In this document: positions 21,521-55,911 of the stretch, piece by piece
Position numbering within the stretch: the stretch's first letter is position 1
Layout of the letters: each line of letters opens with the position of its first letter
Assembly: GCF_001879205.1 (NCBI RefSeq)
Contig: NZ_MLFK01000002.1
Location: 124,001-188,000, forward strand
Direction of reading: 5' to 3'
Source of the DNA: Flavobacterium johnsoniae
GTDB taxonomy: Bacteria; Bacteroidota; Bacteroidia; Flavobacteriales; Flavobacteriaceae
Length of the DNA stretch: 64,000 nucleotides
The notes under the pieces: generated by a model
What the model saw: only the letters and a program-made list of their open reading frames with translations
Databases searched by the model: none
Told to the model about the DNA's origin: nothing
Made by a program: the position numbers and the translations under genes

Positions 21521-22389
21521 TTATCTGAAAGTTTCTAATTTTTTTTCAATTTTATTACCAATACTCTTGTTTGACTTAATAACTCTTTCTTCTAATCTCT
21601 CTATTAATAATCTTGAATTCTCTTCATTCAGCATTCTTCTACGGATATAATAGAGTAAATAAAGCTTATAATCTTCTTTAGGAATATAATACTTTCTAAG
21701 TTATCTAAGGCAGATATTGTATATTCTAACATATGGGAAAAACTTTTAGTCATATTATTATCATGACTACGATAGTAAGCTAATATTTCATCAATAAAAA
21801 CTGCATGAACATTTTTTTGAAAAAAAATAACCACATTAACCAATCTTCTTTCGCTTTCAAATCTGTTGGAAAACGAAAATCTAAAAATAAAGCACTACTT
21901 AACAAACCACAATGTATCGGAATATTAAATCTAAAATCCCACCCATATAATATCTGATTATATTCTAGACAATCTTGATTAATTGACCATGACTGGTTAA
22001 CCAATCTTTAGGATAATCTTTAAACATTTTAAAATGAGTAATGATAATATTGAATAATAAATGGTATTTTATGGAAGCAAGTGATTTACTTATTTTCTGA
22101 GAATCCAAACAATCATCAGCGTCTAAAAACTGAATATAATTACCTTTTGCAACATCCAATCCAGCATTTCTAGCACTACTTAAACCACCATTTTCTTTAT
22201 AAATGTATTTAAAACGCGAATCTTTTATAATCCAGTTCTCGGCTACTTCCTCGGTATTATCTGAGCTGCCATCATTAACAATAATACATTCCCGATTTCT
22301 ACAGGTTTGATCAAATACAGATTGTAAGCTTCATCCAAATATTGGGCTTGATTGTAACAGGGAACAATTATGGAAATTAAATTATCCAT
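21521..22389 (-). pseudogene. Decayed family 2 glycosyltransferase with several frameshifts
   Basis: Starting at ATG 22389 (overlapping the preceding gene's stop) the frame reads MDNLISIIVPCYNQAQYLDE, a GT2 start. It then breaks; the next piece in another frame gives IIVNDGSSDNTEEVAE, GGLSSARNAGLDVAKGN and FLDADDCLD. Further frame changes near 21990 and 21840 lead to WDFRFNIPIHCGLLSSALF, AKEDWLMWLFFFK and, finally, RRRMLNEENSRLLIERLEE with TAA at 21521-21523. All parts of a GT2 domain are present in order but in at least three frames, so no full-length protein can be made. It is a paralogue of the intact GT2 at 18960-19883. Confidence 0.82.
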
Positions 22390-53864: not shown

Positions 53865-55154
53865 TTAAAGTCTATTATCAGCTATGGTTCCCAAAACTCC
53901 TTTTACATCGTATAATAAACTATTTTCTTTTTGCAACTCTGAGAAATTTAATTCTAAACACTCCTTGTGAGAAACTCCCAGAACAATGGCGTCAAATGTA
54001 TTATCGGGAATACTGTTAATTGTTATTAAATTATATTCTTTTTTTACATCATTTGCATTAGCTAACGGATCGAAAATTGTTACTACAATTCCGTATTCTT
54101 TTAATGCTTTTACAACGTCTACAATTTTGGTATTACGAACATCAGGACAATTTTCTTTAAAAGTAATTCCAAGCATTAACAAATTTGCTCCATTAACCGA
54201 AATTCCTTTTTTAATCATTAACTTCACGATTTGAGAAGCTACATATTCTCCCATACTGTCATTCAAACGTCTTCCTGCTAGAATTATTTCGGGATGATAT
54301 CCAAATTCCTGAGCTCTTTGTGCTAAGTAATATGGATCTACACCTATGCAGTGCCCACCCACAAGACCTGGTTTAAATGGTAAGAAATTCCATTTTGTAG
54401 CAGCAGCAGTTAAAACTTCCTGCGTATCGATATTCATTAAATTGAAAATCTTAGCTAATTCATTCACAAAAGCAATATTGATATCTCGCTGAGAATTTTC
54501 AATCACTTTGGCTGCCTCGGCTACTTTTATTGATGGGGCTAAATGCGTACCAGCAATTATAACTGATTTGTATAATGCATCGACTTTTAAACCAATTTCA
54601 GGAGTTGAACCAGAAGTAACTTTTAGAATTTTTTCTACAGTATGTTCCTTATCTCCAGGATTTATTCTTTCAGGAGAATACCCTGCGAAAAAATCTTCAT
54701 TAAATTTCAGTCCTGAAACTTTTTCTAAAACAGGTACACATTGTTCTTCTGTAACACCTGGATAGACCGTTGATTCATAAATCACGATATCTCCTCTTTT
54801 AAGTATTTTGCCAACTGATTCGCTGGATTTATATAAAGGTGTTAAATCAGGTCTATTGTTTTTATCAACTGGTGTTGGAACTGTTATAATGAAATAGTTA
54901 CAGTTTGCTATATCTTCAAGCTGATTTGTACAGTATAATCCAACTTCATTTGTTTGATTATTAACCAATACTTTTTTTAAAGTCTCAGAATCAATTTCTA
55001 AAGTTGAATCAACTCCAGAATTTAAACTTTCAACTCTTGTTTCGTTTATATCAAATCCTACAACTGAATATTTTGTAGCAAATAATCTTGCTAAAGGCAA
55101 ACCAACATAACCTAAACCAATAACAGCTATTTTTATGTTTTGTTCCAATTTCAT
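53865..55154 (-). CDS. UDP-N-acetylhexosamine 6-dehydrogenase (TviB/WbpO/WecC type)
   Basis: A 429-residue UDP-sugar dehydrogenase. GLGYVGLPLARLFA at 13-26 binds NAD, ESTVYPGVTEEQCVP at 127-141 and AGYSPERINPGDKEH at 157-171 are characteristic of the UDP-HexNAc branch, and VGGHCIGVDPYYL holds the catalytic Cys269. It oxidises UDP-GalNAc or UDP-GlcNAc (or ManNAc) at C6 to the uronic acid. With the WbpP-like 4-epimerase of the first operon a route to UDP-GalNAcA is plausible. First gene after the 55.25-kb promoter. Confidence 0.88.
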   Translation of the reverse strand: MKLEQNIKIAVIGLGYVGLPLARLFATKYSVVGFDINETRVESLNSGVDSTLEIDSETLKKVLVNNQTNEVGLYCTNQLEDIANCNYFIITVPTPVDKNNRPDLTPLYKSSESVGKILKRGDIVIYESTVYPGVTEEQCVPVLEKVSGLKFNEDFFAGYSPERINPGDKEHTVEKILKVTSGSTPEIGLKVDALYKSVIIAGTHLAPSIKVAEAAKVIENSQRDINIAFVNELAKIFNLMNIDTQEVLTAAATKWNFLPFKPGLVGGHCIGVDPYYLAQRAQEFGYHPEIILAGRRLNDSMGEYVASQIVKLMIKKGISVNGANLLMLGITFKENCPDVRNTKIVDVVKALKEYGIVVTIFDPLANANDVKKEYNLITINSIPDNTFDAIVLGVSHKECLELNFSELQKENSLLYDVKGVLGTIADNRL

Positions 55155-55199
55155 TACTTTTTTATAATTTCACTCATTACAACTCATGGCTTCGCCCTT

Positions 55200-55223
55200 C
55201 TGAGTCACAAAATTTTGTCTCAG
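55200..55223 (-). promoter_or_regulatory. Inverted repeat in the leader of the long operon
   Basis: CTGAG and CTCAG flank ACAAAATTTTGT, with a two-base TC bulge, giving an 11-pair stem around a palindromic centre. It lies about 18 bases after the predicted transcription start (about 55241) and 45 bases before the ATG at 55154, on the non-coding leader. There is no T-run directly behind it, so it is not a typical terminator. A loading site for the adjacent NusG paralogue, an RNA-stabilising hairpin or an operator are the options. Confidence 0.5.
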
Positions 55224-55244
55224 ATGCCTTAAAATCATTTTCGG

Positions 55245-55275
55245 CAAATATAACATATTCACATTACTTAATCAA
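55245..55275 (-). promoter_or_regulatory. Promoter of the long polysaccharide operon (TTG-N20-TATATTTG)
   Basis: On the minus strand TTG (55273-55275) is followed after exactly 20 bases by TATATTTG (55245-55252). This is a full match to the Flavobacterium/Bacteroides housekeeping promoter, TTG-N17-23-TAnnTTTG. Expected transcription start is about 55241, with an 87-base leader before the UDP-HexNAc dehydrogenase ATG. It lies in the largest gene-free gap of the locus, directly after the terminator of the upstream operon. Confidence 0.75.
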
Positions 55276-55372
55276 TACGGTTTGTCGTATTACTAAAAAG
55301 AAATCGTATTAATTTTTTCTAAAAAAAACAAACTACTCTTAATCAAGTAATAAAGATTTTATTTACAAAAAC

Positions 55373-55413
55373 GAAGAGAGTATAAAACATTAAACAATGA
55401 TTAAACTCTCTTC
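55373..55413 (-). terminator. Terminator after the UpxY-like gene
   Basis: GAAGAGAGT and ACTCTCTTC form a perfect 9-pair stem with a 23-base AT-rich loop that can itself fold (CATT/AATG). On the minus strand it is followed by GTTTTTG. It stands 34 bases beyond the stop of the UpxY-like gene (55447) and before the promoter at 55.25 kb, so it probably ends the first operon. Confidence 0.65.
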
Positions 55414-55446
55414 CTTAATTTAATTCGTTCCTCTTTAGAAACGCAA

Positions 55447-55911
55447 CTATTTATATTTTATTTTCAAAACACAGCCTAATGATTCAAGTACTAAAATATA
55501 ATGTGTCTTCGAGACCTCCTGAACTATTGCATTTTGATTACTAAAAGCTCCTGTTTCTAATTTAATCCTGTCACCAACCTGAATTTTAGTTACTGAAACA
55601 TCTACAATATTTGAAGCATTTAAACTACTCTTAATGTTCGATATTTCTTCATCTCTAACAATTGCAGGTTTCCCTAACCAAAACAAATATCTTACAACAC
55701 CAGCAATTTGAAACACAGAATTTCGATCTGAATTTTCTAATTGCACAAAAACATAGGAATTAAAAAGCGGCATTTCAACCTTTTTCTTTCTATCAGACCA
55801 TTCTTTGATTTGAGTAATCAGTGGACAATAACATTCAATTCCCATTTGAGTAAGCTTTTCAGCTACTTTTTTCTCCCATTTCGGCTTTGTATACAGAACA
55901 TACCAATTCAT
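55447..55911 (-). CDS. UpxY/RfaH-like NusG paralogue (transcription antiterminator)
   Basis: A 154-residue protein with an N-terminal NGN domain starting MNWYVLYTKPKWEKKVAEKL, then CYCPLITQIKEWSDRKKK and PLFNSYVFVQ, and a C-terminal KOW-like segment around 110-135 (VGDRIKLETGAFSNQNAIVQEV). The arrangement is that of specialised NusG proteins such as RfaH and the Bacteroides UpxY family, which bind RNA polymerase at the 5' leader of long polysaccharide operons and suppress premature termination. It is the last gene of the first operon (95-base gap behind ugd) and lies directly before the leader of the 55-kb operon. Regulation of that operon is inference from location. Confidence 0.85.
   Translation of the reverse strand: MNWYVLYTKPKWEKKVAEKLTQMGIECYCPLITQIKEWSDRKKKVEMPLFNSYVFVQLENSDRNSVFQIAGVVRYLFWLGKPAIVRDEEISNIKSSLNASNIVDVSVTKIQVGDRIKLETGAFSNQNAIVQEVSKTHYILVLESLGCVLKIKYK

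Follow-up and report, generated by a model that had tools for sequence, protein, structure and literature searches.

The window analysed here, a 64,000-nt stretch that forms part of a contig of Flavobacterium johnsoniae (source genome of 5.49 Mb), carries on its minus strand a gene for a NusG-family antiterminator (upxY, 55447-55911), whose product of 154 aa contains NGN and KOW domains. On the 5' side of upxY, and on the same strand, are located genes for polysaccharide export, a Wzc-like protein, an epimerase and a UDP-sugar dehydrogenase. Downstream of upxY, past a terminator and a promoter, a polysaccharide cluster begins, and the Pfam assignments of the neighbouring genes thus tie upxY to a surface-polysaccharide operon, as is typical of its family. 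The first gene (53865-55154, minus strand) of the presumed controlled unit, which may extend over 55 kb as a single transcript, encodes a nucleotide-sugar dehydrogenase (Pfam/NCBIfam), and ten genes sampled between 52.4 and 0.6 kb encode sugar-nucleotide enzymes, an export protein, a flippase, glycosyltransferases, an acyltransferase and a Wzy_C protein. Inside the cluster, at 21628-22389 (minus strand), pieces resembling a family-2 glycosyltransferase and split over several frames were read from the sequence.

A preliminary description of this DNA had named the product a NusG paralogue of UpxY type, and the score against NF033644 (141.9 bits, cut-off 100) bears this out; against the RfaH equivalog TIGR01955 it reaches 86.2 bits, below the cut-off of 144.5. 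The genome contains two NusG-domain (PF02357) matches, i.e. UpxY and one protein that is NusG-like in length. A sequence search of the PDB with a profile built from 37 UpxY proteins returned RfaH as the best match (E 8.6e-19). The structure model of UpxY (pLDDT 90.9) consists of the NGN domain and a beta-strand KOW domain, and its fold resembles NusG and RfaH chains (a NusG model at the top, RfaH second). RfaH-type autoinhibition, with an alpha-helical KOW, is not supported by the beta KOW of this model, although modelling may show no more than one of the states of a fold-switching protein. W38, D40 and R41 do not vary among the 37 proteins, and S39, K42 and K43 hardly do; in the model these residues are at the tip of a beta-hairpin (31-38/41-48). 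The beta3-beta4 hairpin of RfaH may contact upstream DNA (PMC5995543, in part), and by analogy the conserved beta-hairpin of UpxY (WSDRKKK) might provide a second contact, with the upstream duplex.

Relatives of the locus were taken from a genome scan in which 323 stretches matched, 266 of them encoding a relative, and the best 80 were kept (76 titled Flavobacterium, three Flavobacteriaceae bacterium and one [Flexibacter]). The 3' flank of upxY was aligned for 79 of these loci together with the window; locus L036, whose contig ends at upxY, was excluded. The intrinsic terminator after upxY (GAAGAGAGT/ACTCTCTTC, then GTTTTTG; 55366-55414, minus strand) was correctly recognized as a hairpin in the preliminary description, since it gives a fold z of -4.08 and 75 distinct related rows preserve the helix while some of its pairs change; a generic terminator scan, which this terminator escaped, found 0. 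The promoter proposed downstream of it, TTG-N20-TATATTTG (55245-55275, minus strand; TTG at 55273-55275 and TATATTTG at 55245-55252), recurs as TTG-N20-TAnnTTTG in 75 of the 80 aligned loci, the window included, TAnnTTTG being the published Flavobacterium sigma-A box (PMC9723704, in part). Between the two, about 20-30 nt past the T-run of the terminator, a TGATT is conserved in the alignment. The -33 box is adjoined by a palindrome, TACGACAAACCGTA (55276-55289, minus strand), which is exact as TACGG-N4-CCGTA in 46/80 aligned loci and has one mismatch in the window. Near-matches of the palindrome, TACGGNAAACCGTA, number 24 in the genome versus 10 for the reversed control, and it is possible that this is an activator or repressor site.

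The leader (55155-55241, minus strand), placed by the promoter position and by the alignment, runs from a predicted start near 55241 as far as the ATG (55154) and hence has the 87 nt given in the preliminary description. It had also been called structured. The fold of the leader as a whole is at chance level (z -1.0; 31/200 shuffles), and therefore comparison between genomes was used instead, which does support a structured leader. The inverted repeat (55199-55224, minus strand) is conserved in close relatives, and hairpins whose arms have changed stand at the same register in relatives. Described earlier as having 11 pairs, the repeat of the window folds with 10 pairs and a 2-nt bulge (-8.2 kcal/mol, z -2.35, with 4/200 shuffles equally good). 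Rfam, searched with positions 55100-55460, returned nothing even with E values of up to 1 allowed.

Directly 3' of this hairpin lies a 12-nt element that the preliminary description does not mention, GGCGAAGCC-ATG (55185-55196, minus strand), conserved in close relatives. What works here is probably this 12-mer, and not the inverted repeat on its own. The window 12-mer (GGCGAAGCCATG) is of the ops type, being a 12-nt leader element with TG at positions 11-12, and a pause is predicted at it with the RNA 3' end at T11 (55186) and G12 (55185) as +1; position 6 is A, both in the window and in the core GCGNAGC, and not the T6 of ops. The core was found 200-300 nt past the upxY stop in 79/79 near relatives (from the best 80 of the 266), and the leader stretch that reads TGTGACTCAGAAGGGCGAAGCCATG in the window is, the promoter apart, what varies least in the alignment. 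With a longer element pattern, the window site is the sole exact match in its own genome.

The variation of the element was followed in 117 elements from the genus, family and phylum samples (one element per locus, 79 WGS loci excluded), which were found by regular expressions that hold GCG-N-AGC constant; when only distinct sequences are counted, they comprise 95 elements or 63 arms. The G and A of the loop were thus fixed by the search pattern and the loop N was free, and this base is A in 96, G in 13, T in 5 and C in 3 of the 117; after the 9-mer come G or A in 110, T11 in 115 and G12 in 90. The arm TGnG begins 12 or 13 nt ahead of the 9-mer in 113/117 elements, within the limited range of distances allowed by the search. 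Two tests, both of which count related sequences as separate and so overstate significance, indicate that two helices co-vary. The outer pair of the 9-mer, left free by the search, is Watson-Crick (G-C, A-T, C-G or T-A) in 79 of the 95 distinct elements, compared with 53 expected if the sides are independent, a count reached by 0/20000 shuffles (the remaining 16/95 are G-T, T-G or mismatched). For the 63 distinct leader arms, own pairing gives -8.4 kcal/mol and swapped pairing -5.2 kcal/mol (z -11.9, 0/5000 permutations). A stronger point is that the pair itself switches between GC, CG, AT and TA in separate lineages.

Sequence and co-variation fit a non-template hairpin with a C3:G pair and G.A closure, for DNA and RNA alike, between which co-variation does not discriminate. 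Mini-hairpins of the GNA and GNNA types that have two or more G-C pairs are described as extraordinarily stable DNA, with a Tm of 78 C for GCGAAGC (passages of PMC4686876), and by that definition we would class the element as a GNA and ops (GC-GGTA-GC) as a GNNA mini-hairpin, a link that is our own. The computed DNA fold of the 12-mer is weak (-1.7 kcal/mol, 15/200 shuffles equally good); the three element forms calculated gave -1.7, -1.4 and -0.3 kcal/mol, and ops -0.9.

The link between element and protein was examined in a genus sample of 199 Flavobacterium genomes, in 115 of which UpxY was matched with an E value no higher than 1e-15. A first pattern, with one mismatch allowed, matched 32 genomes at one site each (reversed control, 1 match), with 30/32 sites following upxY by no more than 300 nt; the remaining two belong to G145, a UpxY genome, and to the UpxY-free G176. 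The G145 match (L241, contig C295) lies on a contig different from that with UpxY. A second, exact pattern was present in 53/115 genomes with UpxY vs 0/84 without (Fisher p 3e-16), at 55 sites in the 53 genomes. Of these sites, 51 are no more than 1.5 kb away from upxY, and the reversed control gave 2 matches. When a strict regular expression was applied to 205 loci, which include near-duplicates because some species are represented both in the 79 WGS loci and among the genus genomes, the element was found within 1200 nt in 159, and the antisense strand of these 243 kb gave 0 matches.

A set of 126 genus UpxY loci (125 and the window), a part of all genus UpxY matches, was then classified by identity; L241 and L242, which have no UpxY, were left out of it, and the short L254, L258 and L264 out of one analysis only. 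The element is nearby in 88 of the 126, i.e. in 33/33 loci with at least 75% UpxY identity, in 12/26, 19/35 and 20/27 of the next classes and in 4/5 below 44%. Part of the 38 loci with no element nearby can be accounted for: 11 carry a second copy of UpxY (55-60% identity) in a different type of locus, alongside which the element was looked for and not found, and six genomes (G002, G019, G081, G092, G104 and G110) have a site 1.4-7 kb away or on another contig. After most of the second copies (L192, L195, L196, L198-L202, L204, L205 and L243), a similar small gene in convergent orientation appears to come next.

In the family sample, a sense match was found at 23/30 loci vs an antisense match at 0/30. 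In the phylum sample the corresponding numbers are 15/30 and 4/30, with the TG-G/T-GA arm in 12 of the 15 sense matches; as the usual arm is thus seen at only 12/30 UpxY loci, UpxY membership is no guarantee of the element. A shared leader motif was sought in the phylum-sample UpxY loci lacking the element, and nothing clear emerged. A stricter family pattern matched 19 of 199 genomes (reversed control, 7 genomes). Fifteen of the 19 have UpxY above the cut-off, 13 of them with the match beside upxY and two (G249 and G590) with matches away from it only; G618 has a sub-threshold UpxY beside the match, and three (G553, G564 and G656) are without UpxY, their matches being at background given the 7 control genomes. 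The same pattern is absent from 24/39 genomes with UpxY above the cut-off. The element is found with UpxYs of as little as about 36% identity, and in other families too.

The preliminary description regarded a regulator encoded just outside its operon as a variant arrangement. The layout itself was correctly read, a terminator and a promoter lying between upxY and the cluster, so that upxY is not the first gene of its target operon as in the Bacteroides type, but it is not peculiar to this locus: in the aligned close relatives, too, upxY is followed by a terminator, a promoter and the leader with the element. Other layouts occur as well. Fifteen Flavobacterium loci (UpxY identity 45-54%) have the element only 47-60 nt past the upxY stop, which leaves no room for a promoter (differing positions in this identity class are +128 in L230 and +727 in L227), and in five such loci (L211, L220, L221, L225 and L238, read by eye) a sugar-nucleotide gene comes next. 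Six genus loci have the element 54-66 nt ahead of upxY, a Bacteroides-like layout, and several family-sample loci also have it upstream of upxY. At one further locus (L162), a 32-nt stretch occurs three times (one letter differs) about 100-900 nt past upxY, with a period of 368-369 nt.

Sites away from upxY were found on another contig in G007 (two, plus one near upxY) and in G110, on the same chromosome, far from upxY, in G150 (a second site), and 2.3-7 kb past upxY on the same contig in G092, G095 and G081. In all six genomes the first or second gene past the site has a sugar-nucleotide or polysaccharide Pfam match (epimerase, GDP-mannose dehydratase, NTP_transferase, UDPG_MGDP_dh, CTP_transf_like and FdtA), with one G007 site having a sub-threshold Polysacc_synt match only. 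Since layouts vary and the sites precede polysaccharide operons, the element tracks those operons and UpxY, and not one gene order. The two distant elements of G007 (L310 and L311) are separated by about 19 kb and share a contig that is not the one with UpxY, and it is possible that they constitute a UpxY regulon acting in trans. The two distant matches of G590 are followed by genes with no Pfam match and for an AAA ATPase, and were set aside as probably due to chance.

The site of RfaH in Escherichia coli, ops, has the sequence GGCGGTAGCGTG. It agrees with the commonest form found here, GGCGAAGCCGTG, at positions 1-4 and 9-12 (8/12) and differs at 5-8; the window element, with A10, agrees at 7/12. 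Both systems consist of a NusG paralogue and a 12-nt element in a surface-polysaccharide leader, in both a mini-hairpin with a C3:G pair and G.A closing and an upstream hairpin can be drawn, and both have sites away from the regulator gene (here in three genomes). They differ in the centre, which here is GNA with one loop base and in ops is GGTA with two, T6 being recognised by RfaH, and in the protein, UpxY having a KOW modelled as beta and a gene that usually adjoins the presumed target. The JUMPstart sequence matches E. coli chromosomes exactly and in one record precedes rfbBDA; the same order, a possible hairpin and then the 12-mer, is found ahead of these genes. The hairpin before the E. 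coli ops (-5.6 kcal/mol) is no better than shuffles (109/200), which makes the hairpin part of the parallel weak. In pause elements the flanks slow the polymerase and a short centre is read by the regulator (PMC6391919, in part); RfaH targets have a pause-inducing TG at 11-12 and need a non-template hairpin with C3:G8 (sections of PMC5995543), and the ops pause is at U11 (PMC11001881, in part).

With UpxY/UpxZ of Bacteroides fragilis the locus shares the protein family, a capsule leader and a role in antitermination (passages of PMC7819879, PMC7593976 and PMC12632263). In Bacteroides, upxY often heads its target operon and is followed, though not in every case, by upxZ, whereas here it precedes a terminator and a promoter. 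Saba (2024) is reported to have found that Bacteroides UpxY recognises the non-template strand and upstream DNA at a pause that a hairpin assists. The LoaP/dfn leader of Bacillus is similar in that a NusG paralogue is recruited via a leader hairpin, but the target of LoaP is an RNA hairpin, with no discernible pause, and a tested upstream sequence was judged unlikely to be directly involved in recruitment (PMC12691694, in the parts consulted). A literature search gave no paper on the flavobacterial UpxY site among the matches listed, and the motif is not claimed here to be unpublished.

It is in our view likely that the leader carries a loading site for UpxY, through which the protein would make the polysaccharide operon processive. 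The earlier proposal that UpxY acts on this leader, still an inference, is well supported by comparison through conserved adjacency, co-variation and co-occurrence. To the anatomy described above, with its link to UpxY and its two co-varying hairpins, the following course of events may be fitted, chiefly by analogy with RfaH and ops. RNA polymerase would start at the TTG/TATATTTG promoter and, about 13 nt past the leader hairpin, would pause at the ops-like flanks (G1, G2 and R10-T11-G12), the RNA hairpin probably lengthening the pause. In the paused bubble, the non-template N-GCGNAGC-N would fold into a d(GCGNAGC) mini-hairpin showing the loop base N. The NGN domain of UpxY would recognise this mini-hairpin, probably aided by the upstream duplex via the WSDRKKK beta-hairpin, and the protein would stay on the polymerase and suppress pausing and termination along the long polysaccharide operon.

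It might instead be the nascent RNA that is read, with UpxY or a partner recognising the leader hairpin and the GGCGAAGCC stem and making no contact with the non-template strand. The co-variation of both helices would suit RNA as well as DNA, and LoaP does have an RNA hairpin as its target (PMC12691694, in part); yet stable DNA mini-hairpins follow just this rule, a C-GNA-G loop in which the middle base is free, the conservation of T11-G12 beyond the stem fits a polymerase pause and the 12-nt register is that of ops. We therefore regard this reading as unlikely, and read-out of DNA rather than RNA as probable.

If the hairpin or the element were a pause or terminator acting alone, its neighbourhood with UpxY would reflect operon history only. 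A hairpin directly upstream and ops-like pause flanks would be expected of such an attenuator, but no U-run follows the hairpin, none of the 84 genomes without UpxY has the exact pattern and the element is kept whether it stands before, after or away from upxY, which leaves this explanation very improbable. The probability is, if anything, still lower that the element serves an ordinary transcription factor as a conserved DNA site close to the promoter, or that it signals ribosome loading or an upstream ORF. Its position 30-40 nt ahead of the first gene in the window would suit such a site, and in 38/80 close loci a 5-codon frame starts with RTG at positions 10-12; however, other frames stop at fixed distances too because the flank is conserved, the 15 loci without promoter room have the element all the same, and the hairpin co-varies.

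Recruitment of UpxY by a leader becomes directly testable with a 12-nt element that is conserved with the protein in many Flavobacteriaceae and in some other families, and the element allows UpxY regulons to be predicted from sequence. For Flavobacterium it offers a short tag for processive long operons. A stable mini-hairpin extruded from non-template DNA is suggested as a general way to address NusG paralogues. A 2020 study of RfaH evolution has been followed by work on LoaP and on Bacteroides UpxY.

More tentatively, Bacteroidia may use a second class of ops, GNA NGCGNAGCN-RTG, which would rest on the same kind of extraordinarily stable DNA mini-hairpin as the GNNA ops of RfaH. The single loop base and the co-varying arms would then be a code that lets the UpxY paralogues within a cell pick out different operons. 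This reading comes from G056 and G159, in which the main UpxY goes with loop A or G and three paralogues of 36-37% identity with loop C. These paralogues (L233, L234 and L235) have their element (AGCGCAGCT) about 65 nt ahead of upxY, and the main UpxY of their genomes has loop A or G.
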